Shown here in pieces: positions 48,934 to 63,730 of a DNA stretch of 64,000 nt (position 1 is its first letter; every line of letters begins with the position of its first letter). The stretch lies in NCBI RefSeq assembly GCF_000373365.1, contig NZ_KB891126.1:62106-126105 (forward strand), given 5' to 3'. This DNA is from Parafrankia discariae. GTDB lineage: Bacteria > Actinomycetota > Actinomycetes > Frankiales > Frankiaceae. The notes beneath the pieces are model-generated. The model saw nothing but the letters and a program-made list of their open reading frames with translations, was not told where the DNA came from and made no database searches. A program made the translations under genes and the position numbers.

Positions 48934-50388
48934 TCAGCCGGTGCGGCTGCCCAGGCCAACGGCGTAGTCCGGCCAGAACTGGCCGGCGGCGGGGCCGCCG
49001 TTGCAGGTGCCGTCCGACTCTCCGGGGACCTTGACCCAGAAGAACGCGTCGACGTCACTGTCGCCCGTCGCGGCGGTGGGCGTGGTGCCGAGCGCGCGCC
49101 CCGGCGGGTTGCACCAGGCGTTGTCCGGCGCGGGGCCCAGCCCGTTGCGACTGGTGTCCACGATGAAGTGGGCTCCGCCGCCCAGCGTGGCGTCGACCGC
49201 GTCACCGAAGGCGACCTCGCCGGCGGTGGCACCGAAGTTCGACACGTTCAGCGCGAATCCGCGCGCCCGGTCGACCCCCGCCGACTTCAGCCGGGCGGCC
49301 ATGGTGGCTGCGCTGTGCCAACCGGCGTTGCCTGCGTCGAGGTAGACGGTCGCCCCCGCGGCGTCCAGGACGTCCACCGCGTTCGACAGCATTCCGTAGC
49401 GGGTCTGCTGATCGGCGGGGGAGAGGCAGTCGATCTGGGCGATGGCGTCGGGCTCGAGCACGACCGCGGCCGGCCCGCCGGAGAGCCCGGCGGCGAAGGC
49501 GGCGATCCAGTCGCGATAGGCCTGCGTGCCGCCGGCGCCGCCGGCGGAATAGCTTCCGCAGTCGCGGTTCGGGATCGCGTAGGCCACGAAGACCGGCAGC
49601 GCGCCGCTACCCCTGATGGTGGTGGCGCGGCCGGCCACGTTGCGCTGGGTCGTGGCCGGATCGGCATAGCCGAACCAGTCCGCGTGCGCGCCACGCAGGA
49701 TCTTCTCCAGCGCCGCGATGGCGGATGGATTCCCGCCGCGCAGCGCGTTGATCGCGGCGGCGACCTGGTCGGCCGGATCGATGTAGAACCTGGCGCCGGC
49801 GAACGGGTTCCCCGCCGTCGCGGCGGCGGGCGCCGGCGGCGCGGCCACCGGCGGGGCCTGGGCGGCGACGGACGGTGCGGCGCCGGTGAGTGGTGCCACG
49901 GGCACCTGTACCGCGGTCAGCCCGGACGGGGCCGGTCGTGCGGGGCCGGTCGCGGTCGGCCCGGTCGTGCGCCCGGCGGCGGGCGGGGGCACGCGGTCGG
50001 CGACGGCCGCCGCGAGCGCGTCCACCGCTGGTTCGGAGCTGTCGGGGCCGGCGAGGCCCCGGCCGAGACCGACCCCGCCGAGCAGAGTCAGCGCCGCCGT
50101 GACCGCGAACGCCGTGCGGGCGAGCCCGCCCGCCAGCGGCGACCGTCGTGATCCGGGGGCGCCGCGCGAGGGCGCTGTGGCCGGGCGGTGCGTCGCGGCT
50201 GGGCGAGCCGCGGCCGGGCGCCGCACCGACGAGCGGTGTGTGGCCGAGTGGTGCGAGGTCCGGCGGGTGCCGGCCGGGTGAATCGACGTCTGGTGGTCGG
50301 TGTCCGCGCCGGCGGCGTCGCCGCCGAAGCCGTATTCGACGGTGCGCGGCCGGGCGGCGGGATTCCTGTTGGGGCGAGCCGCGGGCAC
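48934..50388 (-). CDS. Glycoside hydrolase family 6 protein (cellulase/cellobiohydrolase family), membrane-anchored or secreted
   Basis: 484 residues from GTG 50388, which has GGGAGG four bases upstream; the open frame extends further but has no better start. Residues 1-85 are Arg/Pro/His-rich, followed by one membrane segment (about 87-105) that is either a signal anchor or a late-cleaved signal. A Pro/Ala-rich linker leads to the GH6 domain (about 190-484): NPFAGARFYIDP, PNRDCGSYSAGG (the catalytic-acid loop with Asp), AVVLEPDAIAQIDCL, NVSNF, FIVDTSRNGLGP, NPPGRALG and VKVPGESDGTC. These are hallmark GH6 motifs, so beta-1,4-glucan hydrolysis outside the cell is likely. No carbohydrate-binding module is visible. 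Confidence 0.9.
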   Translation of the reverse strand: MPAARPNRNPAARPRTVEYGFGGDAAGADTDHQTSIHPAGTRRTSHHSATHRSSVRRPAAARPAATHRPATAPSRGAPGSRRSPLAGGLARTAFAVTAALTLLGGVGLGRGLAGPDSSEPAVDALAAAVADRVPPPAAGRTTGPTATGPARPAPSGLTAVQVPVAPLTGAAPSVAAQAPPVAAPPAPAAATAGNPFAGARFYIDPADQVAAAINALRGGNPSAIAALEKILRGAHADWFGYADPATTQRNVAGRATTIRGSGALPVFVAYAIPNRDCGSYSAGGAGGTQAYRDWIAAFAAGLSGGPAAVVLEPDAIAQIDCLSPADQQTRYGMLSNAVDVLDAAGATVYLDAGNAGWHSAATMAARLKSAGVDRARGFALNVSNFGATAGEVAFGDAVDATLGGGAHFIVDTSRNGLGPAPDNAWCNPPGRALGTTPTAATGDSDVDAFFWVKVPGESDGTCNGGPAAGQFWPDYAVGLGSRTG

Positions 50389-50849
50389 GTGCCCTCCCGT
50401 CTTCACAATGCGTTGCCTCGGTGGGTCCCCTCCCGCCCAGAACTGTAGCAGTGCCAGGCGCTGGAACATGACCGTGCTCATCGAGAATGGGGCAACAACC
50501 TGTGTCGGGAAATCCAATTCCGCCCCAACGTGCCCGGTCGGTGGGCGCCCGGCGAGTTCGCATCCGTACCCGGATCTACTCTCACGTGACTGCTGGTCCG
50601 GCTCCGGCGCGCCGGCCGGTCCAGGTCTGGCCCGGCCGGGGCGGGTCACCGGCTCACCGCGAATTCCGGTGCGCTGGGAATCGTTGTCCGCGTGGCCCGT
50701 AGGTGCCGGCCGGGGTGGTTCGCGGTGGCGTCCGTCCGACCACCGTCGTTGCCGGACGGGAACTTCGACGTGACGCAACCGTCACAGTGACGACTGTTAC
50801 GTGCGAGTAGGTGCCGGCACAATGCGTCGTAACCCGGGGCGCCGAGGAT
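50389..50849. other. 461-bp non-coding gap with GTGACG/CGTCAC repeats
   Basis: Holds the upstream region of the GH6 gene and the downstream region of the dehydroquinase gene, both minus strand. At 50770-50785, GTGACG-N4-CGTCAC forms a 6-bp hairpin that overlaps the palindrome GTCACAGTGAC (50781-50791). This may be a terminator for the dehydroquinase gene or an operator. No gene supported. Confidence 0.45.
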
Positions 50850-51287
50850 TCAGGACGCTGTGACGGTCTTCATGAGCGCGTCGGCGGCCAGTTCGTAGCC
50901 GAGCGGGCCGAGTCCGGCGATGATTCCGGCGGCCAGCGGCGAGATGACCGATTCGTGCCTGAACGATTCGCGTGCCCACACGTTCGACAGGTGCACCTCG
51001 ATCCACGGCCGCGGGTAGTTGGCCAGCGCGTCGCGCAGGCTCCAGCCGGCGACCATGAGCGCGCCCGGGTTGACGACCGCGCCCACGGAGTCGTAGTTGT
51101 CCTGGATGGCATGGATCAGCTCACCCTCGGACTCGCGCTGGATCGACACGATCTTCCAGCCCCGGGCGGCGACGCGCTCGGCCATCGCCTCCTCAATGTC
51201 GCGGAGTGTGGCCGTTCCGTAGATCTCGGGCTGACGCCTGCCAAGAATCCCCAGGTTCGGGCCGTTCAGCAGGAGAAGATTGCTCAC
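50850..51287 (-). CDS. aroQ: Type II 3-dehydroquinate dehydratase family (presumed aminodehydroquinate dehydratase, RifJ role)
   Basis: 145 residues, GTG start with AGAGG upstream. The AroQ fold is clear: NGPNLGILGRRQPEIYG (Arg17/18, Tyr23), EVHLSNVWARESFRHES (His99, Arg110) and GIIAGLGPLGYELA. In an AHBA locus it should convert aminodehydroquinate to aminodehydroshikimate, the AHBA synthase substrate. The substrate loop that usually reads NxGxxTHTS is NPGALMVAGW here, so the conserved His (His81 in the mycobacterial enzyme) is Val79. This is either adaptation to an amino-substrate or a changed reaction. Divergent from the AHBA synthase gene. Confidence 0.9.
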   Translation of the reverse strand: MSNLLLLNGPNLGILGRRQPEIYGTATLRDIEEAMAERVAARGWKIVSIQRESEGELIHAIQDNYDSVGAVVNPGALMVAGWSLRDALANYPRPWIEVHLSNVWARESFRHESVISPLAAGIIAGLGPLGYELAADALMKTVTAS

Positions 51288-51623
51288 AGTGTACCTCTAC
51301 AAGGGTGTAGCGGATGTTCGGGCACGGTGTTTATAACAGGGCGCATGCTTCACCGCCGGCCAGGGCCGGCTGTGCGGCGCTGCTCCTACCCGCTCTCGGC
51401 GTGATTCGCAAGCTCGATGGTGGTGGGGGCCCGTGGTGTCGGGGTGGTGACAGCGTCGTCCGCGGCCATCCGGGAGAGCGCTGCCAGTTGCCTGGTGTTC
51501 CCGTAGTACCGTCCTTTGCGCACCGGGTTCGATGGATTTCGTCCGTCGAAGGCCGGCATGGGGGGGCTGTCGACATCGCCGCAGCCTCGCAGGCATCTGT
51601 ATCCGTCATGAAGGGTTAGGTAT
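51288..51623. other. Divergent promoter region of the AHBA locus
   Basis: 336 bp without a supported gene. CTACA-AGGG-TGTAG (51297-51310) is a 5-bp-arm repeat close to the dehydroquinase start. TTTATAAC at 51330-51337 is the only strongly AT-rich patch and may be a -10 region. AAGGGTTAGG precedes the AHBA synthase ATG. Confidence 0.45.
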
Positions 51624-52790
51624 ATGAGCGACAGTCGACGCCCGGCGCCCGAGTTTCCCGCCTGGCCGCAGTTCGACGGCGCGGAACGTGACGGACTGAT
51701 CCGCGCACTGGAACAAGGTCAGTGGTGGCGCATGGGCGGTGGCGAGGTCGACGCCTTCGAGCGGGAGTTCGCCGAGTACCACGGCTCGCGCTACGCCCTC
51801 GCGGTGACGAACGGCACCCACGCGCTTGAGCTGGCGCTGCAGGTGCTCGGGGTCGGCCCCGGCACGGAGGTCATCGTCCCCGGGTTCACGTTCATCTCGT
51901 CGTCGCAGGCCGCCCAGCGGCTCGGCGCCGTCGCCGTCCCGGTCGACGTCGACCTCGACACGTACTGCATCGACCCGGCGGCGGTGGAGGCCGCGATCAC
52001 GCCGCGGACGAAGGCGATCATGCCGGTGCACATGGCCGGCCACCTCTCGGACATGGACGCGCTCGCCAAGATCTCCGCGAACTCCGGTGTCGCGATCATC
52101 CAGGACGCCGCACACGCCCACGGCACCCGGTGGCAGGGCCGCAAGGTCGGCGAGCACGGCAGCGTCGCGGCCTTCAGCTTCCAGAACGGCAAGCTGATGA
52201 CGGCCGGCGAGGGCGGCGCGGTGACCTTCCCGGACGCCGAGCTGTACGAGCAGGCGTTCCTGCGGCACAGCTGCGGCCGTCCGCGCACGGACCGCCGTTA
52301 CTTCCACCAGACGTCCGGCTCGAACTTCCGGATGAACGAGTTCTCGGCGTCCGTGCTGCGCGCGCAGCTCGCCCGGCTCGGCGGACAGATCGACACCCGG
52401 GAGCAGCGCTGGCCGGTGCTGGCCGGCCTGCTGGCCGAGATCCCCGGTGTGGTCCCGCAGGGCCGCGACCCGCGCTGTGACCGCAACTCGCACTACATGG
52501 CGATGTTCCGGCTGCCCGGCGTCGGCGAGGAGCGGCGCAACGCCCTCGTCGACGCGCTGATCGAGCGCGGCCTGCCGGCGTTCGCGGCGTTCCGCTCGAT
52601 CTACCGCTCGGACGGCTTCTGGGAGACCGGCGCGCCCGACGAGACCGTGGACCAGATCGCCGCGCGCTGCCCGAACGTCGAGGCGCTGAGCGCGGACGGC
52701 ATCTGGCTGCACCACCGCACGCTGCTCGGCACCGAGGAGCAGATGCACGACATCGCGGCGATCGTCGCCGAGACGCTGGCGGACGCGTGA
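51624..52790 (+). CDS. rifK: 3-amino-5-hydroxybenzoate (AHBA) synthase
   Basis: 388 residues, a PLP enzyme of the DegT/DnrJ/EryC1 aminotransferase fold. It matches RifK closely from memory: APEFPAWPQFDGAER, ALEQGQWWRMGG (34-39), the VTNGTHALEL cofactor loop, DAAHAHG (Asp161 to the PLP nitrogen), FSFQNGKLMTAGEGG with PLP Lys190, and RHSCGRPRTDRRYFH. AHBA synthase aromatises 5-deoxy-5-amino-3-dehydroshikimate to AHBA and, with an oxidoreductase partner, may also act earlier on UDP-3-keto-glucose. AHBA starts ansamycins and mitomycins. The next gene (RifL type) overlaps by GTGA, as in rifamycin clusters. Confidence 0.96.
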   Translation: MSDSRRPAPEFPAWPQFDGAERDGLIRALEQGQWWRMGGGEVDAFEREFAEYHGSRYALAVTNGTHALELALQVLGVGPGTEVIVPGFTFISSSQAAQRLGAVAVPVDVDLDTYCIDPAAVEAAITPRTKAIMPVHMAGHLSDMDALAKISANSGVAIIQDAAHAHGTRWQGRKVGEHGSVAAFSFQNGKLMTAGEGGAVTFPDAELYEQAFLRHSCGRPRTDRRYFHQTSGSNFRMNEFSASVLRAQLARLGGQIDTREQRWPVLAGLLAEIPGVVPQGRDPRCDRNSHYMAMFRLPGVGEERRNALVDALIERGLPAFAAFRSIYRSDGFWETGAPDETVDQIAARCPNVEALSADGIWLHHRTLLGTEEQMHDIAAIVAETLADA

Positions 52791-54085
52791 CGACGACCGT
52801 GAGCTCGCCGGCCCCGGGGCCCGGCGACGCGCTCGTCACCGCGAGCGCCCTGGCGTCGTCGGGGGCGCTGGCGTCGTCGGAGGCGCTGGCTTCCACGGGG
52901 GCCCTGGCCGCACCGGTGGCCCTGGCGGCGCCGGCCGCCCCGCCCGCCGCCGCGTCCGCGGTGACCGTGGTCCGCGCGGCACCGGGCCGGGTGCGTGTCG
53001 CCGTGGTCGGGCTCGGCTGGGCCGGGCGGTCGATCTGGCTACCCCGGCTGCGTGACCACGCGGGGTACGACGTGGTCGCGCTGGTCGACCCCGACGCGGC
53101 GGCCCGGGCCGAGCTGGCCGCGGCGCTGTCCGCGCAGACACCGGTCGGGCTGTTCGACCACCCGGACGCGCTGCGTCGGGCAGAGGTGGACCTCGCCGTG
53201 GTGGCCGTCCCCAACCATCTGCACAGCTCTGTAGCCGCACGGTTGCTAAACGCCGGGGTTCCGGTCTTCCTGGAGAAGCCCGTCTGCCTCAGCACCGCCG
53301 AGGCCGACACCCTGGCCGCCGCCGAGCTGGCCGGCGGGGCGATGCTGCTGGCCGGCAGCGCGTCCCGTTTCCGGGCGGACACCCGCGCCCTCTACGAGCT
53401 CGCCGGGCGGCTCGGTGAGATCCGGCATGTGGACGTCTCGTGGGTGCGCGCCCGCGGTGTCCCCGACGCCGGCGGCTGGTTCACCCAGCGCAGCCTCGCC
53501 GGCGGCGGGGCGCTGGTCGACCTCGGCTGGCACCTGCTCGACGCGGTCGCGCCGTTCGTCGGCACCGACGGCTTCACCCAGGCCGTCGGGACCGTCTCCA
53601 GCGACTTCGTCGCCAACGCCGCCTGGGGCGCGGCCTGGCGACACGAGGACGCCGACCAGTCCCGGGCCGGAGGCGACGTGGAGGACACCGTCCGCGCGTT
53701 CCTCGTCGCGGGCAATGGTGTGTCGGTGTCGCTGCGCGCGAGCTGGGCGTCCCACCAGGCGCTCGACGCGACGGTGATCCGGGTCGAGGGCAGCGCCGGC
53801 ACGGCCGAGCTGCGCTGCACCTTCGGCTTCAGCCCGAACCGGCATCCCGCGTCCACGCTGACCTGGACGAAGGATGGCGTGGCCAGCGCCGTCGACGTCG
53901 TCACCGAGCCGATCGGCGCCGAGTACCGCCGTCAGCTCGACGAGCTTCCGGGGCTGCTCGCCGACGCCGGGCAGCACGGCCGGGCGGTCGCCCAGGCCCG
54001 GTCGACGATCGCCGCCATCGAGCGGGTCTACGCCTCCGCGCGGCCCCGCAACCACGCCATCCCGGCCGCCCGGGCCGGGCTCTGA
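52787..54085 (+). CDS. rifL: Gfo/Idh/MocA-family oxidoreductase (RifL type)
   Basis: 432 residues, GTG overlapping the AHBA synthase stop. Residues 1-67 are a low-complexity Ala/Ser/Leu extension with tandem ALASS/GALA repeats. The Rossmann domain starts RVRVAVVGLGWAGRSIWLPRL (69-89); VPNHLHSSVA and FLEKPVCLS (catalytic Lys of the EKP motif) follow; the C-terminal domain has LVDLGWHLLDAV. In the rifamycin pathway RifL is thought to oxidise UDP-glucose at C3 on the way to kanosamine, working with RifK. The extension is probably not essential; a later GTG near residue 59 could give a normal-length protein. Confidence 0.88.
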   Translation: MTTTVSSPAPGPGDALVTASALASSGALASSEALASTGALAAPVALAAPAAPPAAASAVTVVRAAPGRVRVAVVGLGWAGRSIWLPRLRDHAGYDVVALVDPDAAARAELAAALSAQTPVGLFDHPDALRRAEVDLAVVAVPNHLHSSVAARLLNAGVPVFLEKPVCLSTAEADTLAAAELAGGAMLLAGSASRFRADTRALYELAGRLGEIRHVDVSWVRARGVPDAGGWFTQRSLAGGGALVDLGWHLLDAVAPFVGTDGFTQAVGTVSSDFVANAAWGAAWRHEDADQSRAGGDVEDTVRAFLVAGNGVSVSLRASWASHQALDATVIRVEGSAGTAELRCTFGFSPNRHPASTLTWTKDGVASAVDVVTEPIGAEYRRQLDELPGLLADAGQHGRAVAQARSTIAAIERVYASARPRNHAIPAARAGL

Positions 54086-54190
54086 CACCGGAAGCGCCCG
54101 CCGTCAACCGGCCCGCCGCCGCCCACCACCACCCGCCGACCGGCAACCGCAACCCACCGCCGACCGCAACGCCCAGCCCTGGGGGAACCG

Positions 54191-54835
54191 ATGGTCACTC
54201 ACGCGATCGTCTTCGACCTTGACGGTGTGATCGTCGACAGCCACGCCGTCATGCGCGAGGCATTCATGATCGCCTACGCCGAGGTGGTCGGGGAAGGCCC
54301 CGCACCGTTCGAGGAGTACAACCGCCACCTCGGTCGGTACTTCCCGGACATCATGCGGATCATGGGCCTGCCGCTCGAGATGGAGGAGCCCTTCGTCCGG
54401 GAGAGCTACCGGCTCTCCCGGAAGGTCATGCTCTTCGAAGGCGTCCGCGAGCTGCTGGGCGACCTGCGTGAACGCGGCCTGCGGCTGGCGGTGGCGACCG
54501 GCAAGAGCGGCCCGCGGGCCCGCGCGCTGCTCGGTGAGCTGGAGATCGTCGACTACTTCGAGCGGGTCATCGGGTCCGACGAGGTGGCGAACCCCAAGCC
54601 GGCCCCGGACATCGTCCTGCTCGCCCTCGACGTGCTCGGTGCCGCGCCCGGCGAGGCGATGATGATCGGCGACGCGGTGACCGACATCCAGAGTGCCCGC
54701 GGCGCCGGGGTGCGGGCGGTCGCCGCCATGTGGGGGGAGACCGACGAGGCCGAGCTGTTGGCGGCCGGCCCCGACTCGGTGCTGCGCTCACCGCGCGAAC
54801 TCCTCGGCCTGCTCGGCGACCACCGGGTGGGGTGA
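54191..54835 (+). CDS. rifM: HAD-family phosphatase (RifM type)
   Basis: 214 residues, ATG with GGGGGA upstream. It has all four HAD motifs: AIVFDLDGVIVDS (nucleophile Asp9, Asp11), LRLAVATGKSG, the Lys in NPKPAPDIV, and MIGDAVTDIQSARGAG. The cap insertion FEEYNRHLGRYFPDIMRIMGLP fits the AHBA-cluster phosphatase group (RifM relatives). It likely removes a phosphate or nucleotide-derived group in aminosugar formation for the aminoshikimate route. It is the third gene of the rifK-L-M-like unit, 105 bp after the previous stop, and ends before a hairpin facing a convergent operon. Confidence 0.88.
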   Translation: MVTHAIVFDLDGVIVDSHAVMREAFMIAYAEVVGEGPAPFEEYNRHLGRYFPDIMRIMGLPLEMEEPFVRESYRLSRKVMLFEGVRELLGDLRERGLRLAVATGKSGPRARALLGELEIVDYFERVIGSDEVANPKPAPDIVLLALDVLGAAPGEAMMIGDAVTDIQSARGAGVRAVAAMWGETDEAELLAAGPDSVLRSPRELLGLLGDHRVG

Positions 54836-54905
54836 GGCGACGCGGCGGGGACGGCGTCGGGTGACCACCGCGCTGTGCGGACGGCGCGGTGTTCTGGACG
54901 GCCGT

Positions 54906-54940
54906 CGGCGGGACCCGGGTCTCCACGTCGGGCCCCGCCG
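54906..54940. terminator. Bidirectional terminator in the middle of the AHBA locus
   Basis: Arms 54906-54917 and 54929-54940 pair over 12 bp with one mismatch and an 11-nt loop. They lie between the convergent genes ending at 54835 and 55032. Confidence 0.55.
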
Positions 54941-55031
54941 GTCGTCATCGTGACCGGAATCCGTGCTCATGACCGGATCCGCGCCCGGAGTCTCCGCGCC
55001 CGGAGCCGGAGCCGTGGCGGCTGTCGCGGTG

Positions 55032-56117
55032 TCAGCCGGCCCGGTCGCGGTCGTCGCCGCGTTCCGCCTCGGCGTGCCGGGCGAGGATCACCGCGCCCGC
55101 CAGCGAGGACAGGCCGCCCAGCGCCGCCGCCCGGACGGACACCGGCGGATGGCCCGGTCGGGCCATCGTCCGGGCCTGTTCGGTGATCGTGTCGACGAAC
55201 CCGGGTAGCCCGTCCGCGAAGCCGCCGCCGACCACCGCGAGATCCGGCCGCACCAGCTCGGTCAGCCCGACCAGCGTGCCCGCGATCGCGCGCGCTGTGG
55301 CCCCGACCGCGGCGCGGGCCCAGCCCGCACCCGCCAACCAGGCCTCGCGCAGCTCCGGATAGGTCACCTCGGCAGTCACAGGCTCGGCAGTCACAGGTTC
55401 GGCAGCCGCGGGTTCGGCAGCCGCGCCCGGTTCGCCTGGCGCGTGCGGTTCGTCGGGCGCGTGCGGTCGGGTGGTGCCGTCCGGTCGGGTGGCGGCGCGT
55501 AGCTCGGTGGCCCGGCGCAGCGTGGCCGGTCCGGAGGCGAGGGCCTGCAGGCAGCCGTCCCGCCCGCACCGGCACCGCGGCCCGTCCAGCGCCACGATGA
55601 GATGGCCGATCTCGCACGAGCCGCGTGCGGTGCCGGGGCAGAGCCGGCCGTCGAGCACGATGCCACCGCCGATGCCCGTGCCGACCCCCACGTAGATCAG
55701 GTTCGCGCTGTCGGCATGGTCCGCTTCGGCGAGTGCGGCGAGGTCGCCGTCGTCGCCGAGCGCCACCGGCGCGCCCATGGCGAGCTCCCGCACCGCCCGC
55801 CCGAGGTCCAGACCCGTCCACGACGGTCGGCTCGGCCAGGTACTGACCCGACCGGACGGGTCGACCGTGGCCGGCATCGCGACGCCGACGCCGACCAGCC
55901 GTCCGCCCCACTCGCCGAGCAGCGCCGCCACGCCCGCCCCGAGGTCGCGCAGGTCGGTCTCGGCCGGCACGCCCGTCGACCACCGGAAGCTCGCCTCGCG
56001 GGGCGCACCGCCGACCGGCACCAGCCGCAGCGCGACCTTGGTGCCACCGACGTCGATGCCGAGATGTCCGATCGCGCCGGCGTGGCCGGCCGGGCCGGCC
56101 ACGTCGACGGGGCTCAC
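55032..56117 (-). CDS. rifN: ROK-family sugar kinase (RifN, kanosamine kinase type)
   Basis: 361 residues, GTG overlapping the upstream stop (GTGA). ATP-binding DVGGTKVAL lies near residue 22; VGVGTGIGGGIVLDG, EIGHLIVALDGPRCRCGRDGCLQALASG (the His plus CxCGxxGC zinc site of ROK proteins, with Gln where Glu is more common), and RPDLAVVGGGFADG follow. A Pro/Glu/Thr-rich, partly repeated insertion (about residues 218-252, with EPVTAEPVTAE) interrupts the domain. In AHBA pathways RifN phosphorylates kanosamine at O6, feeding aminoDAHP formation. Last gene of the convergent G-I-N unit. Confidence 0.88.
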   Translation of the reverse strand: MSPVDVAGPAGHAGAIGHLGIDVGGTKVALRLVPVGGAPREASFRWSTGVPAETDLRDLGAGVAALLGEWGGRLVGVGVAMPATVDPSGRVSTWPSRPSWTGLDLGRAVRELAMGAPVALGDDGDLAALAEADHADSANLIYVGVGTGIGGGIVLDGRLCPGTARGSCEIGHLIVALDGPRCRCGRDGCLQALASGPATLRRATELRAATRPDGTTRPHAPDEPHAPGEPGAAAEPAAAEPVTAEPVTAEVTYPELREAWLAGAGWARAAVGATARAIAGTLVGLTELVRPDLAVVGGGFADGLPGFVDTITEQARTMARPGHPPVSVRAAALGGLSSLAGAVILARHAEAERGDDRDRAG

Positions 56118-56986
56118 CGCGTGTCCGGCAGGCCGAAGAAGGCGCGGTACAGGTCGACCTGCTCGGCCAGCATGTGGATACCCGGATGGGTGGGCAGGCC
56201 GCGCTCGGCCGCCGCCCGCAGCAGCCGGGTACGCGCCGGCTTCATGATGATGTCCGCCACGACGCAGCCCGCCGGCAGCGCCGCGGGGTCGAACGGCAGC
56301 GGGTCGGCCGGGCGCAGCCCGAGCGGGGTGGCGTTCACGATCAGATCGACCTCCCGGGCCGGCGTGGCCGCCGCCGCACTCGCCCGACCGGGCCAGGGCG
56401 GCTCCAGCCGTCCCAGCAGCTCGCCCGAACGGGCGGTGTCGGGATCGTGGAGGGCCAGGTCCGCGCAGCCGGCCTCGAGCAGTGCCACCGCGATCGCGCT
56501 GCCGGCCCCGCCCGCACCGGCCAGGTGGACCCTGGCCCCCGCCACGCGATGCCCCGCGCGGGCCAGACCGCGGACGAAACCGGCACCGTCGAAGTTGTCG
56601 GCCAGCCACCGCCCGTCCGGCTCGCGGCGCAGGGCGTTCGCGCTGCCGCTGATCCGCGCCGCGGGGGAGCGGACGTCCGCCAGCTCCGCCGCGGCGACCT
56701 TGTGCGGGATCGTGATCAGGATGCCATCCAGATTGGCCATGGCGCACAGCCCGGCCAGCACGGTCGGGAAGTCACGCGGACGGGCGTGCACGGGCACCAG
56801 CACGGCGTCCAGGCCCGCCTCGGTGAACACCGGATTCACCAGCATCGGCGCCTGGACCTGCTCGACCGGGTCACCGACGACGGCGTACAGCCGGGTCGTT
56901 CCGGTGATCTCCCGGGGTCGTGTCGGCTCCCGCCGGGCCGGATCCGGTTCGGCCAGCGTCGCGGACCTTCGACCCGGGCCGGTCAT
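56114..56986 (-). CDS. rifI: Shikimate/quinate dehydrogenase family (RifI type)
   Basis: 290 residues, ATG overlapping the aminodehydroquinate synthase stop by four bases. The substrate domain contains VVGDPVEQVQAPMLVNPVF, ILITIPHKVAAAELAD (catalytic Lys96) and NFDGAGFVRGL (Asp133). The NAD(P) fold has LAGAGGAGSAIAVALLEAG; NATPLGL and GIHMLAEQVDLYRAFFG complete the pattern. RifI-type proteins reduce aminodehydroquinate/aminodehydroshikimate-like compounds and are not strictly needed for AHBA; here it may recycle a shunt product. Its first 30 residues are a polar extension. Confidence 0.9.
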   Translation of the reverse strand: MTGPGRRSATLAEPDPARREPTRPREITGTTRLYAVVGDPVEQVQAPMLVNPVFTEAGLDAVLVPVHARPRDFPTVLAGLCAMANLDGILITIPHKVAAAELADVRSPAARISGSANALRREPDGRWLADNFDGAGFVRGLARAGHRVAGARVHLAGAGGAGSAIAVALLEAGCADLALHDPDTARSGELLGRLEPPWPGRASAAAATPAREVDLIVNATPLGLRPADPLPFDPAALPAGCVVADIIMKPARTRLLRAAAERGLPTHPGIHMLAEQVDLYRAFFGLPDTR

Positions 56987-58077
56987 GCCGCCTCGCGATC
57001 CATCGTGCCCAGCGTCGCGACCACCAGATCGGCCGGGACGTCGGGCACGAGCCGAGGGCCGTCCGCGGAGTCGAGGACGAAGGCGAGGCCGGTGTTCGCG
57101 GACCCACCGGTGTTCGTGGACTTCTTGTCCAGCCGCATGACGGCGACGAGCGCCGCCGCGTCGGCCCCGGCGGGCAGCGCCGTCGGCAACCCGTAGTGCG
57201 AGACCACCTCGAGGTGTTCGTCGGCGCGCCGGTCGTCGATCAGACCCAGCGCGGCGGCGAGCCGGCCGGCGAAGACCGTCCCGACCGCGACGCCCTCGCC
57301 GTGCCGCATCTCGAAGCCGGTGACGATCTCCAGCGCGTGACCCAGGGTGTGGCCGTAGTTGAGGATGTGGCGCAGGCCGGAGTCGCGCTCGTCGCGGGCC
57401 ACGACCGAGGCCTTGAGCGCCACGCTGCGCGCGATCTGTTCCTCGACCGGACGTCCCCGCAGGTCGCCGGCGCCGATGAAGTGCGCTCGGGCGATCTCGC
57501 CGTAGCCGTTCGTCCGCTCGCGGGCGGGCAGCGTCGCCAGGTAGTCGGTGTCGCACAGCACCGCGCTGGGCTGCCAGTACGCGCCGACCAGGTTCTTGCC
57601 GGCGGGCAGGTTCACCGCCGTCTTGCCGCCGACGCTCGCGTCGACCTGCGCCAGCAGCGACGTCGGAAGGTGGATCACCGCGATCCCGCGATGGTAGAGC
57701 GCCGCCGCGAGGCCGACGACATCGGTTGTGGTCCCGCCGCCGCAGGACACCACCGCGTCCGTGCGGGTCAGGCCGAACGCCGCGAACCGCTCGCAGAGCC
57801 CCTGGACGTTGGCCAGGTTCTTGTCCGGCTCGCCGTCGCGGGCGGCGACCCGCAGCGCCGGAACCCCCGGGTCGGGCACCGCGTCGTCCTCGGGCCGGGC
57901 CGAGACGATCACGACCCGGGACGCGCCGATCCGGGCGACGACCTCCGGAAGCGCGCGCCGGACGCCCGGTCCGATGTCGACGGGATAGCCGCGGTCGCCG
58001 AGCTCGACCCACACCCGGTGCGTCCCGGGTCCGCCGGCACGGTCGCCGTGCCCGAGTGTCTCGGACGGTGCCGTCAT
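56983..58077 (-). CDS. rifG: 3-dehydroquinate synthase family (aminodehydroquinate synthase, RifG type)
   Basis: 364 residues, ATG at 58077 with GGAAGGA upstream. The DHQS fold is complete: DGEPDKNLANVQGL, SCGGGTTTDVVGLAAALYHRG (113-131), HLPTSLLAQVDASVGGKTAVNLPAGKN (137-162), GYGEIARAHF (zinc Glu194) and HILNYGHTLGHALE (zinc His). It should cyclise aminoDAHP to aminodehydroquinate. GYGEIAR differs from the GLAEVVK-type sequence usual in primary AroB, in line with a secondary-metabolic role. First gene of the rifG-I-N-like operon, divergent from the A-PCP-TE gene. Confidence 0.92.
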   Translation of the reverse strand: MTAPSETLGHGDRAGGPGTHRVWVELGDRGYPVDIGPGVRRALPEVVARIGASRVVIVSARPEDDAVPDPGVPALRVAARDGEPDKNLANVQGLCERFAAFGLTRTDAVVSCGGGTTTDVVGLAAALYHRGIAVIHLPTSLLAQVDASVGGKTAVNLPAGKNLVGAYWQPSAVLCDTDYLATLPARERTNGYGEIARAHFIGAGDLRGRPVEEQIARSVALKASVVARDERDSGLRHILNYGHTLGHALEIVTGFEMRHGEGVAVGTVFAGRLAAALGLIDDRRADEHLEVVSHYGLPTALPAGADAAALVAVMRLDKKSTNTGGSANTGLAFVLDSADGPRLVPDVPADLVVATLGTMDREAA

Positions 58078-58150
58078 CACGGTCCTTCCGGTGTCCGCTC
58101 GGCCGGTCGCGGATGTCAGGGACACGACAGCGCCGGCTGAGTCACATGGT

Positions 58151-58250
58151 GATATCCGGAGACGAGTCTGCACCCCGGGATCTCTGATAGCCCGAGTGGG
58201 GGAGTGGTTGGAGTTGTCCGGTCGTATCATCGGCGATGCTTCCGGATATC
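58151..58250. promoter_or_regulatory. Divergent promoter region with a widely spaced 10-bp inverted repeat
   Basis: GATATCCGGA at 58151-58160 and its exact complement TCCGGATATC at 58241-58250 flank the AT-rich middle of the 209-bp gap between rifG-like and A-PCP-TE genes. The second site also contains the palindrome GGATATCC. Two copies could be bound by one regulator with DNA looping. No regulator gene is adjacent. Confidence 0.45.
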
Positions 58251-58286
58251 CAGAAACGGAGCGAGAGCGGCCTGGGGGGTCGAAAC

Positions 58287-61085
58287 ATGGTCGGAACGCA
58301 TCCGTTGGCCGTGCTGGCGGCGAATCTCGCGGAACCCGACCCGACAATCGTGGGGCGGTTCTCTCGGATCGTCACAGCGCGTGCCAACGACATTGCGGTA
58401 CGCGATGAGAAAACCGTACTGAGCTATGCCGAGCTGGACTCGCGTTCATCCGCGCTGGCTCGTTCGCTTGTCGTCGAGGGGGACGGCGGCAACATCGGGA
58501 TCCTGCTCGGCCAGGGAGCGCCCGCGATCGTCGCGATGCTGGGCGCGCTGAAGGCCGGGCGGCCGTTCGTGCCGCTCGACCCGATGCTCCCCGCGGCACG
58601 GCTGGGGCAGATCCTGCGGCTGGCGGGGGTCGCCACCTGCGTGACCGACAGCGCGCACACCGAGCTGCTCGCCGCCGCCCGGCTGGAGGCGGCCGACACC
58701 GGTTCCACGCCCGGTACCGCGACTGGTTTCGGGCCAGGGTCCGGCCGGGGGGCGGAGCGCACCCTGCTCGTCGACGGCGAACTACCCGCCGCGACCACCG
58801 AGACCGACGACGACCTGCTGCCGGGCCGGCGGGCGCTGCCCACCGGTCCTGCCTTCCTGGTGTTCAGCTCCGGCTCCACCGGCGTGCCCAAGGGCGTCGT
58901 CTGGCGGAACCGGACCGTGATGAAGGACCTGGACGCGGGCATCGAGCGGGTCGGGATGAACGCCGCCGACCAGGTCGCCCTCGTGCTGCCGACCGCGTTC
59001 GCCGCCGGCATCACGGTCATGTTCTGGGGGCTGCTCTGCGGCGCCACGCTGCACCCGTTCGACCCGCGGACCAGCGGGATCGGCGCGATGCCCGGCTGGC
59101 TCGTCGACCGCGCCATCACCACGCTGCACCTCACCCCGTCGCTGGTGCGCGCGCTGACCGGTGCCGCCGGGCCCGGCCTGACCCTGCCCGACCTGCGCGC
59201 GGTCACCAGCTCCGGCGAGGCCGTGTACGGCCGGGACGTCGCCGCCCTGCGCGCGCTACTGCCTACAACGTGCACGTTCTACAACTGGTCCGGCTCGACC
59301 GAGACCGCCTCGCTGGCCTTCTTCCCGGTCAGATCCGGCGACGAGATTCCGGCCGGACCGCTGCCGGCGGGATGGGCCGTCGACGGCAAGGACATCGAGA
59401 TCGTGGACGAGCACGGCAAACCCGTGCCGGATGGTGCCACCGGCGAAATATCAGTTACGTCAAGGTATCTTTCCGGCGGCTACTGGAACGCCCCCGAGAT
59501 GACCGCGCAGCGATTTCGGCCGGTACGTCTGTGTGGTGATTCCACGACGGACGGCTCACGGGATTCCAGTGCGCTGGTTTCCGATGACCAGGCCCCGGCC
59601 AGCCCGGCCGGCGGCCTGCCCGTATCCGGTGTCACCGTCACCGGTGAGATCATCCTCGGCGACCTGGGGTCCACCGAGGTCGTGTACCGCGGCGGCGATC
59701 TGGCCCGGCGGCGCCCGGACGGCTGCATCGAACTGCTCGGCCGCGCCGACGCGGCGGTGAAGATCCGCGGCTACCTGGTCGAGCCCGCCGAGATCGAGAC
59801 CGTCCTGCTCACCTCGCCGGACGTCCTCGAGGCCGTCGTCGTCGCCGAGCGGGTCGAGGGCGAGCCACCGCGGCTGATCGCCTACGTCGTGTGCGCCACC
59901 GCCGTGAAGTCGGCGACCGTGGCGATCCGCGGCCTGCTACGGGAGAAACTGCCCGCCTACATGGTGCCCTCCTCTGTGGTCCTGCTCAACGAGCTGCCCC
60001 GCAACGAGCGCGGCAAGATCGACCGACCCGCGCTGCCGGCGCCGCCGCCCCGCCCACCGGCCCGCCGTCCCACCGGGCGCAGCCACTGGGAGTTCGCGCT
60101 GTGCGACCTGTTCGCCCAGATCCTCAAAGTCGACGAGGTCGGCGTCGACGACGACTTCCTCGAGCTCGGCGGAGACTCGCTGCTCGCCCAGCAGCTCCTG
60201 AGCGAGATCGCCACCCGCCTGGGCGTGACCCTGCCGACCTCGGTGCTGGTGGAGGCGCCGACAGTCGCCGCGCTGGCCGTCCGGGTGGCGGGCGCCCAGC
60301 GAGGCATCCCGACCCATCCGACCTGCGTCCCGCTCAACGTCGACGGCGCCCGCCCGCCGCTGTTCTGCGTCGCCGGCGCGGGCGGGCTCGCCATCAACTT
60401 CCTCGGACTCGCCCGCCTGCTCGGCTCCGACCAGCGGGTCTACGGCCTGCAGGCACAGGGGATGGAGAACCGGGCACTCCCCGACTGGAGCGTCGAGCGC
60501 CACGCCCGGCGTCACCTGGCCGTGCTCCGCGTGATCCAGCCGGCGGGTCCCTACTACCTCGCCGGCTTCTCGTTCGGCGGGCTGGTCGCCCTGGAGATGG
60601 CGCACATGCTCGCCGCCGCCGGCGAGGAGGTGGGGATGCTGCTGCTGCTCGACACCACGCTGCCCCGCTCGGCCCAGTCCGCCGCCGGAGCCCGCCCCGG
60701 CGGCGACCCCGGCAACGGGGGACGAATCACCCGACTGCTACCGGACAAGTTCCCGCTGCCGAACGCGTCCAAGCTGCGCAAGGCGGTCCGCCTGCCACTG
60801 ACCGGACTCGTCCGCTACCCCGGCCTCGCCCAGTTCGACGTGTTCTTCGACCAGGCCCGGTTCATCGCCCAGTCGTACCGGGTGCGGCCGTACGCCGGGC
60901 GGACGATCCTCTACCTCGCCGAGGACAACCCCAAGTCCGGCCGGGACGAGTGGCCCACGCACCTGACCGGTGACTCGACCATCGTCACCGTCCCCGGCGA
61001 GCACCACACGATGCTCAACGAGCCGAACGTCGCGGTGCTGGCCGCGGACATGCGCGCCCGCCTCGGAGAGTCGATGAAGCTGTAA
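58287..61085 (+). CDS. NRPS-like A-PCP-TE enzyme (adenylation, carrier, thioesterase)
   Basis: 932 residues. ATG at 58287 follows GGGGGG; ATG at 58236 lacks a ribosome binding site. Adenylation domain ~20-585: A3 FSSGSTGVPKG (194-203), A5 NWSGSTE (333-339), A7 YRGGDLARRRPDG, A8 GRADAAVKIRGY and A10 RNERGKIDR with Lys577. The A4 region reads PTAFAAGITVMFWG: Ala239 stands where the alpha-amino-binding Asp lies, which favours an aryl or other non-alpha-amino acid such as AHBA. Carrier domain ~600-672 has LELGGDSLL (Ser631). Thioesterase ~690-930 has GFSFGG (Ser762), an Asp in LLLLDTT and a His in GEHHTML. There is no condensation domain. An insertion at ~415-462 precedes A7. Confidence 0.92.
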   Translation: MVGTHPLAVLAANLAEPDPTIVGRFSRIVTARANDIAVRDEKTVLSYAELDSRSSALARSLVVEGDGGNIGILLGQGAPAIVAMLGALKAGRPFVPLDPMLPAARLGQILRLAGVATCVTDSAHTELLAAARLEAADTGSTPGTATGFGPGSGRGAERTLLVDGELPAATTETDDDLLPGRRALPTGPAFLVFSSGSTGVPKGVVWRNRTVMKDLDAGIERVGMNAADQVALVLPTAFAAGITVMFWGLLCGATLHPFDPRTSGIGAMPGWLVDRAITTLHLTPSLVRALTGAAGPGLTLPDLRAVTSSGEAVYGRDVAALRALLPTTCTFYNWSGSTETASLAFFPVRSGDEIPAGPLPAGWAVDGKDIEIVDEHGKPVPDGATGEISVTSRYLSGGYWNAPEMTAQRFRPVRLCGDSTTDGSRDSSALVSDDQAPASPAGGLPVSGVTVTGEIILGDLGSTEVVYRGGDLARRRPDGCIELLGRADAAVKIRGYLVEPAEIETVLLTSPDVLEAVVVAERVEGEPPRLIAYVVCATAVKSATVAIRGLLREKLPAYMVPSSVVLLNELPRNERGKIDRPALPAPPPRPPARRPTGRSHWEFALCDLFAQILKVDEVGVDDDFLELGGDSLLAQQLLSEIATRLGVTLPTSVLVEAPTVAALAVRVAGAQRGIPTHPTCVPLNVDGARPPLFCVAGAGGLAINFLGLARLLGSDQRVYGLQAQGMENRALPDWSVERHARRHLAVLRVIQPAGPYYLAGFSFGGLVALEMAHMLAAAGEEVGMLLLLDTTLPRSAQSAAGARPGGDPGNGGRITRLLPDKFPLPNASKLRKAVRLPLTGLVRYPGLAQFDVFFDQARFIAQSYRVRPYAGRTILYLAEDNPKSGRDEWPTHLTGDSTIVTVPGEHHTMLNEPNVAVLAADMRARLGESMKL

Positions 61086-61100
61086 CCGGGCCGCGCGGTT

Positions 61101-61133
61101 CGCCGAGAGAGGGCGGCATAGTCTCTCTCGGCG
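61101..61133 (+). promoter_or_regulatory. Perfect 10-bp inverted repeat overlapping the exporter start
   Basis: CGCCGAGAGA (61101-61110), 13-nt loop, TCTCTCGGCG (61124-61133); the last base is the G of the GTG start. It could attenuate transcription, hide the translation start, or bind a protein. Confidence 0.5.
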
Positions 61134-63007
61134 TGATACCTGAGTCCATGCCCGGCCCCCGCCCGCCGGGCGGGCCGGTGGACGTCCCGTCGACCAGGGT
61201 GACCCGCCTGCACGCCCGGGTGGTGGCGAAACTGACCGGCGTCGACGAGTCCGCCCGCAGCCTGCGCTTCTTCGCCGACCAGGGGCGGGTGATCACCGCC
61301 CTGGTCGGCCTGTCGGTCATCGGTTCGGTCGCGGTCGCGGCCGGCCCGTTCCTGCTGCGCCACCTCATCGACGACTCCCTGCCCACCGGACAGGTCGGCG
61401 ACCTCGTCGTCCCGGTCCTTCTCCTGTGCGTCCTGCTGGTGTTCGAGTCGGCCGTGCTTGCCACCCGAATGGCACTCATCGCCCGACTCGGCGCCGTGAT
61501 CACAGTGCGGACCCGGCAGGCGATCAACGCCCATCTGCAACGCCTGCCCTTCGGCTTCTTCCCCCGCAGTCAGCAGGGCGAGGTGATGACGGTGATGTCC
61601 ACCGACGTCATCACCGCCCAGTACGCGGTCTCCGCCGTTGTCCAGGCGGTGATCTGCCGGGTGGCGGACATCGCCGTCGGTACCGCCGTCGTCTTCGTGC
61701 TGGACTGGCGGCTCAGCCTGGCCGTCATGGTCTTCGCCCCCGCCACACTCCTGATCATGAAATCCGGTCGTCGCCGTCTCGCCGGCATCTCCCACCGTCA
61801 GCGAGAGCTCGACGGCCAGCTCATGGCCCAGGTGGCGGACACCTCCTCGGTCTCGGGCGCGCTGCACGTCCGGCTGTTCGACCGGGCGGACCACGAATGC
61901 GACCGCTTCGACGCCGCCGCCGCCGAACTGCTGGACGCCAGCCGCGAGCAGGCCCAGCTGACCTCGCGGGTTCGCCTCGTCGTGAACCTCGGCATCGTCA
62001 TGACGATGACGGTGGTCGTCACCCTCGGCGCCTGGCTGGTCTCCACCGGACACACCTCGCTCGGTACCGTCGCCGCGCTCGGTGGGGCGCTCCTCGTCTC
62101 CTTCGGCCCGCTCGCCTCCGCCGTCGAGCTCCGTTCCGAGCTCTCCAGCGCCGGCGCGTCGTTCCGTCGGATCTTCGCCCTGCTCGACCTCCCGGCGGAC
62201 ACCGCGGGCCCTGCGGTAATCGCGGACTCTCCGCGGGTCCCCGCCGCGTCGGCGCCGGATCTCACCCTTGACGACATCTGGTTCTCCTATGACATCGCCA
62301 CCACCACCCTGGACGGCGACGACGCGGCATGGAACCTGCGCGGTGTCACCCTGCGGGTCGCGCCAGGGTCGACGACCGCGGTCGTCGGGGCCAGCGGCGC
62401 CGGCAAGACGACCATCACCTACATCGCCAGCGGCATCCACCGTCCCCAGCACGGCGCCATCCGGCTTGGCGGCGTGGCCCTGGACGAGATCCCGTCATCC
62501 GAACTGCATTCGCTGATCGGGGTCGTTCCCCAGGATCCGCACCTGTTTCACGACACCATCGCGGCGAACCTGCGCTACGGACGGCTCGACGCCACCGACG
62601 ACGAACTGCGCGAGGCGCTCGACGCGGCCAATCTCTCGGCGCTGCTCGACCGGCTGCCGGACGGGCTGCGCACCCGTGTCGGCGCCCGCGGCTACCGGCT
62701 CTCCGGCGGCGAGCGCCAGCGGCTCGCCATCGCCCGTGTCCTGCTGCAGTCGCCCCGGGTGCTGATCCTCGACGAGGCCACCTCGGCGCTGGACACCGTC
62801 TCCGAGGCGGCCGTCCGTGCCGCGCTCGACCGGCTCGCGGTCGGCCGGACCTGCCTGGTCATCGCGCACCGGCTCTCCACCGTGATCGACGCCGACCGCA
62901 TCTACGTCATGGACCACGGCCGGGTGGTCGAGGACGGCACCCACGGTGAGTTGCTCGCCGACGGTGGCGCCTACGCCCGCCTGTACCGCCCGGTCGCGGC
63001 GGGTTGA
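61133..63007 (+). CDS. ABC exporter, fused membrane and ATPase domains
   Basis: 624 residues from GTG 61133 (ATG at 61148 possible). About six membrane helices lie in residues 55-330 (for example VITALVGLSVIGSVAVAAGPFLL and LVVPVLLLCVLLVFESAVL), with the coupling segment LQRLPFGFFPRSQQGEVMT. The ATPase domain has Walker A GASGAGKTT, signature LSGGERQRLAIARVLL, Walker B VLILDEATSALD and H-loop IAHRLST. It is an MsbA-like half-transporter that would act as a homodimer to export a drug or lipid. It starts 47 bp after the A-PCP-TE gene on the same strand, so it probably exports the product or gives self-protection. Confidence 0.92.
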   Translation: MIPESMPGPRPPGGPVDVPSTRVTRLHARVVAKLTGVDESARSLRFFADQGRVITALVGLSVIGSVAVAAGPFLLRHLIDDSLPTGQVGDLVVPVLLLCVLLVFESAVLATRMALIARLGAVITVRTRQAINAHLQRLPFGFFPRSQQGEVMTVMSTDVITAQYAVSAVVQAVICRVADIAVGTAVVFVLDWRLSLAVMVFAPATLLIMKSGRRRLAGISHRQRELDGQLMAQVADTSSVSGALHVRLFDRADHECDRFDAAAAELLDASREQAQLTSRVRLVVNLGIVMTMTVVVTLGAWLVSTGHTSLGTVAALGGALLVSFGPLASAVELRSELSSAGASFRRIFALLDLPADTAGPAVIADSPRVPAASAPDLTLDDIWFSYDIATTTLDGDDAAWNLRGVTLRVAPGSTTAVVGASGAGKTTITYIASGIHRPQHGAIRLGGVALDEIPSSELHSLIGVVPQDPHLFHDTIAANLRYGRLDATDDELREALDAANLSALLDRLPDGLRTRVGARGYRLSGGERQRLAIARVLLQSPRVLILDEATSALDTVSEAAVRAALDRLAVGRTCLVIAHRLSTVIDADRIYVMDHGRVVEDGTHGELLADGGAYARLYRPVAAG

Positions 63008-63031
63008 GCCCGTCCGCGGCTCAACCCGCCG
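62997..63031. terminator. Bidirectional terminator at the end of the AHBA locus
   Basis: Perfect 14-bp arms (62997-63010 and 63018-63031) and a 7-nt loop. It covers the exporter stop codon and ends 3 bp before the convergent regulator stop at 63034. Confidence 0.75.
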
Positions 63032-63033
63032 TC

Positions 63034-63630
63034 TCATGTGCGGGATCCCGCCGGACGGGCACGCACGTGCAGGCGTTCCCCCTGCGGGCCGAACAGGCTG
63101 ATGGCCTCAACCGGCTCCGGGCCCGGATTGCTGAACGCGTGCGGGACGTGTGTGTCGAACTCGGCGACCTCGCCTGCGGTCAGGATGACTTCCCGGTCGC
63201 CCAGAAGCAGGTGCAGCCGGCCGGACAACACGTAGATCCATTCGTAGCCCTCGTGCGTCTGCGGTTCCCTCGCACAGGTCGGCCAGCCGGGCGGAAAGAT
63301 CATTTTGAATGACCGCAGCCCGCCTGGACGCCTCGTCAGCGGTACGACGGTCATTCCGTTGCGCTCGACCGGCCGCGGGAGCACCCGTGGGTCGCCCGTC
63401 GGCGGCGTGCCGACGAGCTCGTCGAGCGGAACCTGGTAGGCCTTCGCGAGAGGGAGCAGCAGCTCCAGAGTCAGCCGGCGCTGCCCGGACTCCAACCGCG
63501 ACAGCGTGCTGACCGAGATCCCGGTGGCGCGGGAGAGCGCGGGAAGAGTAGTCCCGTTCTGCTTGCGCAGCGCGCGCAGCCGCGGCCCCACCGCGGCCAG
63601 CACAGCCTCAACGCCCTGTTCGGCTCCCAC
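63034..63630 (-). CDS. XRE-family regulator with C-terminal cupin domain
   Basis: About 198 residues; GTG at 63630 or 63636. The HTH is VGPRLRALRKQNGTTLPALSRATGISVSTLSRLESGQRRLTLELLLPLAKAY (about residues 13-64). A cupin barrel follows (about 120-190): HEGYEWIYVLSGRLHLLLGDREVILTAGEVAEFDTHVPHAFSNPG, with metal-ligand-like His and Glu. Such proteins sense a small molecule or polyamine-like ligand and control an adjacent enzyme. It lies 100 bp behind a PLP aminotransferase gene on the same strand, more likely its partner than the convergent AHBA exporter. Confidence 0.9.
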   Translation of the reverse strand: MGAEQGVEAVLAAVGPRLRALRKQNGTTLPALSRATGISVSTLSRLESGQRRLTLELLLPLAKAYQVPLDELVGTPPTGDPRVLPRPVERNGMTVVPLTRRPGGLRSFKMIFPPGWPTCAREPQTHEGYEWIYVLSGRLHLLLGDREVILTAGEVAEFDTHVPHAFSNPGPEPVEAISLFGPQGERLHVRARPAGSRT

Positions 63631-63730
63631 AACCACCCCACCACTCTCGCCCTGAATCTGCCGTCCTGGCGCGGTAGCCGTCGGTGGCCGCCGCCAGGGA
63701 CGCCGGGGCATGCCCAGCGACTGACCGTCT

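Follow-up and report, generated by a model that had tools for sequence, protein, structure and literature searches.

AHBA (3-amino-5-hydroxybenzoic acid) is the precursor of the ansamycins and the mitomycins. Rifamycin and the other ansamycins are served by AHBA cassettes (RifG to RifN), and the same enzyme set is found in the locus of Parafrankia discariae described here. It lies in a window of 64,000 nucleotides, by which we mean the whole stretch of DNA analysed, on contig C25 (141,583 bases; NZ_KB891126.1) of a 7.9-Mb genome. Compared with the rifamycin and ansamycin cassettes the Parafrankia locus has no polyketide synthase (PKS), no RifF and no RifH, but it does have an enzyme of adenylation (A), peptidyl carrier protein (PCP) and thioesterase (TE) domains, A-PCP-TE, and an ABC exporter. 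Two other systems are worth considering. The mitomycin type of pathway is alike in that AHBA would be used outside polyketide assembly. The quinone and furanone synthetases (HapA1, HapA2, CorA) have the order adenylation-thiolation-thioesterase (A-T-TE) without a condensation (C) domain and are of similar length, and it is by domain order and length that we liken them. These synthetases join two aromatic alpha-keto acids, and we know of no link between them and AHBA genes. HapA1 has 964 amino acids, and the bacterial counterparts of these enzymes are RalA and EchA (PMC10316625).

We tentatively propose that Parafrankia has here its own form of an AHBA pathway that is conserved and independent of any PKS, in which the A-PCP-TE enzyme would couple AHBA to a second acid and the conjugate would be exported. 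The parts are known and their combination is unfamiliar. The genes of the locus are as follows.

50850 to 51287, minus strand: RifJ-type type II dehydroquinase (aminodehydroquinate dehydratase; PF01220, E 5e-46)
51624 to 52790, plus strand: RifK, AHBA synthase (1b9h, 650 bits; 30-row tree)
52787 to 54085, plus strand: RifL, Gfo/Idh/MocA oxidoreductase (PF01408), its start overlapping the RifK stop
54191 to 54835, plus strand: RifM, HAD phosphatase (TIGR01454, 342 bits, cut-off 246.65)
55032 to 56117, minus strand: RifN, ROK-family kanosamine kinase homologue (PF00480; the start is our choice)
56114 to 56986, minus strand: RifI, shikimate/quinate dehydrogenase-like (PF08501)
56983 to 58077, minus strand: RifG, aminodehydroquinate synthase homologue (PF01761/PF24621)
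58287 to 61085, plus strand: A-PCP-TE enzyme, stand-alone and like a nonribosomal peptide synthetase (NRPS) (Pfam); the frame is open from 58236
61133 to 63007, plus strand: ABC exporter with fused membrane and ATPase domains (PF00664/PF00005)
62997 to 63010 and 63018 to 63031: perfect 14-bp inverted repeat with a 7-nt loop, between exporter and regulator
63034 to 63711, minus strand: XRE-cupin protein, a possible local regulator (PF01381/PF07883)

All named genes of the locus are intact frames. The homologues of RifG, I, J, K, L, M and N stand together. The K-L-M arm converges on the N-I-G arm, RifJ and RifK are divergent, and so are RifG and the A-PCP-TE gene, which is followed by the exporter after 47 bases, both on the plus strand. 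A preliminary description of this DNA, made from its letters, had named the seven homologues, the two convergent arms followed by the A-PCP-TE and exporter genes, and a hairpin closing the locus. All of this held up, the homologues by Pfam and NCBIfam and the hairpin as the perfect 14-bp repeat at 62997-63031. A terminator scan that requires a T tail does not report this hairpin. The arrangement is not due to chance, since it is syntenic in named Parafrankia and Frankia contigs.

The best solved relative of RifK is the rifamycin AHBA synthase 1b9h (E 7.7e-195, a near full-length match). The QNGK motif, whose lysine we take to be the pyridoxal phosphate lysine, is present in 28/28 RifK homologues fetched. 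The gene at 51624 groups with the AHBA synthases in the 30-row tree, and the placement outside them that the preliminary description had said would count against it is not seen. RifM scores above the AHBA-specific cut-off of TIGR01454. By homology and the known logic of the pathway, the block probably makes AHBA.

The distribution of the block was examined in 35 Frankiaceae genomes. It is found in 19/19 Frankia and Parafrankia genomes and in 0/16 other Frankiaceae. RifM is over the cut-off in 19/35: 6/6 Parafrankia (g1), 13/13 of the group g2, which we take to be Frankia in the strict sense, and 0/16 in five other genera. A class-wide draw had 24/393 genomes with RifM over the cut-off, namely these 19 and 5 others. 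The seven genes are whole and in the same convergent layout in 18/19 (13/13 g2 and 5/6 Parafrankia), and RifJ is present in all 18 blocks read whole. RifN of one genome (G002) aligns over 193 residues only. The block of strain EUN1f is split, with DUF6461, RifJ and RifK on one contig and RifM, N, I, G, A-PCP-TE, exporter and regulator on another; RifL was not seen in this block. The A-PCP-TE gene is beside RifG in 6/6 Parafrankia genomes and the XRE-cupin regulator is at the locus in all six. The exporter adjoins A-PCP-TE in 5/6; the locus of EI5c has none. EUN1f has a second A-PCP-TE copy directly after RifM at a contig end, without N-I-G. Another of its contig ends has a second block-type RifK adjoining a GH6 gene (L160:1343-2185) that is related to the one of the window. 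It is likely that these are the two ends of a compact RifK-(RifL)-RifM-A-PCP-TE copy.

One can imagine a scenario where the locus is an inactive leftover of an ansamycin cluster whose PKS was lost, as neither RifH nor a PKS is in the locus. This would have to be reconciled with intact frames, retention in 19/19 genomes and a dN/dS of 0.04-0.48 over all genes and pairs compared, and we regard it as highly improbable. The ratio is lowest overall in RifJ and RifK and highest in RifN and RifL; RifK has values of 0.09-0.15 and A-PCP-TE of 0.20-0.30. In the RifK tree (30 rows, the broken EUN1f block RifK pieces being left out) the Parafrankia block sequences form a clade of 5 rows (support 96/97) and the Frankia block sequences a clade of 13 rows (97/95). 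A separate Parafrankia clade of 4 rows is PKS-linked (99/98). One clade of all 18 block sequences appears in 46% of bootstrap trees, which does not settle the matter. The AHBA block was also considered as a marker of nitrogen fixation. This was rejected, as nifH is present in 25/35 genomes including 5/5 of the block-free group g6.

The KS-AT (ketosynthase-acyltransferase) probe has no match in the window, in 20 kb to its left or in the 15.5 kb to its right that reach the contig end, and no AHBA-loading modular PKS stands beside the AHBA genes as it would in an ansamycin cluster. The preliminary description had reported no PKS, and had offered a PKS immediately to the right as grounds for dropping its proposal. 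No such PKS is seen up to the contig end. The absence holds for the window and the locus, and a genome without a PKS must be rejected because contig C1 carries an AHBA-loading one. This PKS belongs to another AHBA cluster of the genome, one of ansamycin type (C1:223-24493; L050, L051). The cluster has RifK, L and M, a PKS that starts with a loading A domain, more PKS genes, a RifF-type N-acetyltransferase and an FAD oxygenase. Its PKS genes are partly undetermined or collapsed in the draft, so the number of modules is unsettled. The window RifK shares 78% identity with the PKS-linked RifK of this cluster. No RifF-type amide synthase is in the window locus, and the genome's single PF00797 gene is on C1. 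A SARP-like regulator was seen by eye at the C1 cluster. The logic of loading A domain, PKS and amide synthase is that of the short (pentaketide) ansamycin clusters such as those of the tropansamycins (PMC13000494). Unlike them, the C1 AHBA-PKS locus lies on another contig than the window block, and the 60 kb read from the start of C1 hold none of RifG, I, J and N. The window block may therefore serve the C1 cluster too.

This leads to another explanation, that the block is a precursor factory working in trans for an ansamycin-type PKS elsewhere, with A-PCP-TE and the exporter as unrelated neighbours. C1 fits, having the loading PKS, the RifF-type synthase and RifK, L and M without the other four genes. 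Loci related to C1 in G017, G019, G020 and G006 likewise have no match to RifG, I, J or N in the stretches fetched. The C1 loading domain was used to search the 35 genomes at a threshold of E 1e-80, with the best 42 candidates scored per genome; several of these genomes are fragmented. Matches over the threshold occur in 7/35. An AHBA-loading A domain was detected in 6/19 block-bearing genomes (58-100% identity to the query); G016 (34%, a 516-aa frame) and contig C91 of this genome (40%) are not counted as AHBA-loading PKS. The other 13/19 have no match at E 1e-80, including the single-contig genomes G001, G003 and G005. Loading regions from three outside actinobacterial AHBA-PKS clusters share 48-58% identity with the query, and even a match of 40% has E 3.5e-87, so the misses are meaningful. 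Six outside AHBA loci were fetched, and a loading domain is within 20 kb in L097, L098 and L101 and not in the other three. In G001, G003 and G005 the KS-AT probe matches nothing in the ~26-27 kb on either side of the block. In G001 and G003, which we take to be ACN14a and CcI3, inspection by eye shows amtB/glnK and otherwise ordinary genes as neighbours. It also speaks against a factory in trans that A-PCP-TE is kept at the block in 6/6 Parafrankia genomes, including G018 and G021 that have no loading-domain match. We consider this explanation unlikely.

An AHBA pathway kept in 19/19 genomes, with no loading domain detected in 13, makes a further use of AHBA likely. AHBA or a small conjugate of it could well be a conserved metabolite of Frankia and Parafrankia, although we stop short of calling this probable. 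The PKS-independent pathway would be vertically inherited, and Parafrankia would have added the A-PCP-TE acyltransferase and the exporter.

What the A-PCP-TE enzyme activates is the next question. By Pfam it has A, PCP and TE domains and no C domain, which is the A-T-TE order of an NRPS-like enzyme. The start at 58287 is likelier than 58236 because relatives begin at a matching MVGT (L011, L013, L014 and L069 by gene finder, and L015). The GGDSL, GFSFGG, LLD and GEHH motifs are in 7/7 AHBA-linked copies, with the PCP serine and the TE Ser/Asp/His intact. The ten-position code AATHTSWSLK is identical in all seven. In a scan of contigs the nearest named relative is Parafrankia soli NRRL B-16219, with an A-PCP-TE that is 92% identical over the best segment. 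That scan has relatives at 7 loci, 5 in Parafrankia/Frankia and 2 distant (28% and 23%), and it is the one source of relatives outside Frankiaceae.

The preliminary description held that the A domain activates AHBA itself, which the TE would release as an ester, amide or oligomer for the exporter to secrete. A-PCP-TE is constantly linked to AHBA genes in Parafrankia, there is the RifM-A-PCP-TE copy of EUN1f, and the AHBA-linked copies form a clade of their own, apart from the paralogues. The pocket has Ala at the position of GrsA D235, and Ser replaces the Pro of the A5 motif. Both features are described for alpha-hydroxy and alpha-keto acid domains in a review (PMC11253843); equating its proline with the A5 Pro is our reading by way of LgrA numbering. 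The code suggests an acid without an alpha-amino group as the substrate. AHBA is also without an alpha-amino group, hence Ala at 235 is compatible with it. The A domain is, however, 26% identical to the AHBA-loading PKS domain of the same genome, and the enzyme is lacking in 13/13 Frankia blocks. AHBA may well not be the acid that the A domain selects, and the main argument for this comes from the relatives of the enzyme.

A-PCP-TE relatives at E 1e-60 or better are present in 24/35 Frankiaceae genomes, and 18 places were fetched from this match list. There are two orphan sister families in Frankiaceae, here named P and Q, with 41-48% overall identity, and no AHBA genes were seen in the P and Q loci read. 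Family P is found in g2 and in some genomes of g7, presumably Pseudofrankia, and is flanked by DUF4230 and Hsp20 genes. Its code agrees with the AHBA-linked code at 8-9/10 positions in 9/11 rows and at 7 in two rows. In three g7 genomes (G029, G030, G034) it is AATHTCWSLK, one position off AATHTSWSLK. These three have no RifM over the cut-off, and their RifK matches are <=37% or none. A code that is 9/10 identical in genomes lacking AHBA genes argues that the activated acid is not AHBA. The activation of AHBA by A-PCP-TE is thus not supported as the preliminary description stated it, and we find it doubtful. There may have been a substrate shift inside the AHBA-linked clade.

In the 3 Parafrankia genomes whose P site was examined (L136, L137, L138) no family P gene stands there, and there is no P match in 6/6 Parafrankia genomes. 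A-PCP-TE is still not simply the Parafrankia orthologue of a core P, as a joint clade with Frankia P is rejected (AU p 0.00015); the test program warned that long branches meet. Examples of family P are L111:8876-11653, L115:7891-10620 and L120:8132-10912, and the region is conserved. The family Q code shares 1/10 positions with the AHBA-linked code. In family Q (L112:7547-11557, L127:7328-11563) the D235 position is Ile, which the alpha-keto domain StsA also has there. The neighbouring gene encodes an FMN-dependent dehydrogenase, and an alpha-keto acid substrate would agree with this. The A-PCP-TE trees omit L113_2225, which passed the motif filter but is not homologous. The structure alignments omit 4/23 rows: L011 (an undetermined residue), L113, L117 and L124.

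The biosynthesis that we favour, a conjugate of AHBA with a second acid, would run as follows. By homology and the logic of the rifamycin pathway, RifL, K, M and N would lead to kanosamine 6-phosphate, RifG and RifJ would run the aminoshikimate steps with RifI on a side branch, and RifK would aromatise the product to AHBA. The A domain would load an acid without an alpha-amino group (alpha-hydroxy, alpha-keto or similar) onto the PCP, the TE would transfer it to AHBA, at either its amine or its phenol, and the small conjugate would be secreted by the ABC exporter. Where a genome has an ansamycin-type PKS, the block probably also supplies the enzymes lacking from the PKS cluster.

It must be noted that several points weigh against this scenario. 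That AHBA may be the acceptor of the TE has gene proximity as its sole basis. Motif alignment, not a solved pocket, was used to place the code. McyG activates Phe despite Val at the D235 position (PMC11253843), so loss of D235 by itself does not exclude an amino acid substrate. The predicted A domain (mean pLDDT 78.2) best matches the amino-acid A domains LgrA/TycA (Z ~46), and its match to feruloyl-CoA synthetase has a Z of 43.6. For the predicted TE (mean pLDDT 74.9) the matches are type I TEs, among them 7crn and Pks13. These A and TE model matches fix no substrate. A-PCP-TE is in 0/13 Frankia blocks, and the scenario does not account for the use of AHBA there. An AHBA-loading PKS is present in 4/6 Parafrankia genomes, so AHBA has another sink there.

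The last of these points is that RifH is absent from the locus. RifH, the aminoDAHP (amino-3-deoxy-D-arabino-heptulosonate 7-phosphate) synthase, is usual in AHBA cassettes but not universal. Among outside actinobacterial AHBA loci a DAHP-synthase-like gene was seen by eye in L096 and L099; L098 and L101 have none in their 20 kb. The lack of RifH is therefore not peculiar to the Parafrankia locus. The genome holds one class II DAHP synthase (PF01474), on contig C102; class I enzymes were not searched. Around this gene the similarity to AHBA genes is limited to one ROK match of 31%. Since RifH is not in the locus, the housekeeping class II enzyme probably makes aminoDAHP in its place.

AHBA genes in themselves are not uncommon, since AHBA synthase genes are reported in almost half of the Micromonospora genomes studied (PMC5765111). 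A figure legend of 2008 counts an N-acetyltransferase of EAN1pec among putative amide synthases. The locus is not described in the passages of the literature searched, Frankia included (PMC11213898, PMC2764864, PMC4383371, PMC11323853, PMC9760358), and an earlier notice is possible. If our scenario is true, AHBA has one more use besides the ansamycins and mitomycins. The bearers of the block include nitrogen-fixing root symbionts. The role of AHBA can be tested in cultured strains, and in Parafrankia the A-PCP-TE is a defined enzyme for this.

Two genes lie to the left of the block.

46562 to 48688, minus strand: DUF6461 protein (PF20062), a candidate member of the locus
48934 to 50778 of the window: GH6 (cellulase-family) gene, adjoining the AHBA block

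The DUF6461 gene is a conserved left neighbour, within ~3 kb of RifJ in 6/6 Parafrankia genomes. The GH6 gene sits between DUF6461 and RifJ in the window and in P. soli. The right flank up to the contig end has the regulator and an aminotransferase. Inspection by eye adds, among others, genes for a methyltransferase, a glycosyltransferase, an epimerase and a metal ATPase. The aminotransferase was considered as a source of an alpha-keto acid and dropped, as it is near the locus in 2/5 right flanks read (the window and P. soli). The methyltransferase-like gene (L009:5735-6343) could be a tailoring enzyme. A gene of this kind is also near the locus in P. soli, P. colletiae and EI5c, and adjoins XRE-cupin in the latter two. 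At a distance of a few kb from the block, many g2 genomes encode a small VOC-like protein as well as an FAD protein that resembles tryptophan halogenases (L053:18079-19728; L054:15384-17033).

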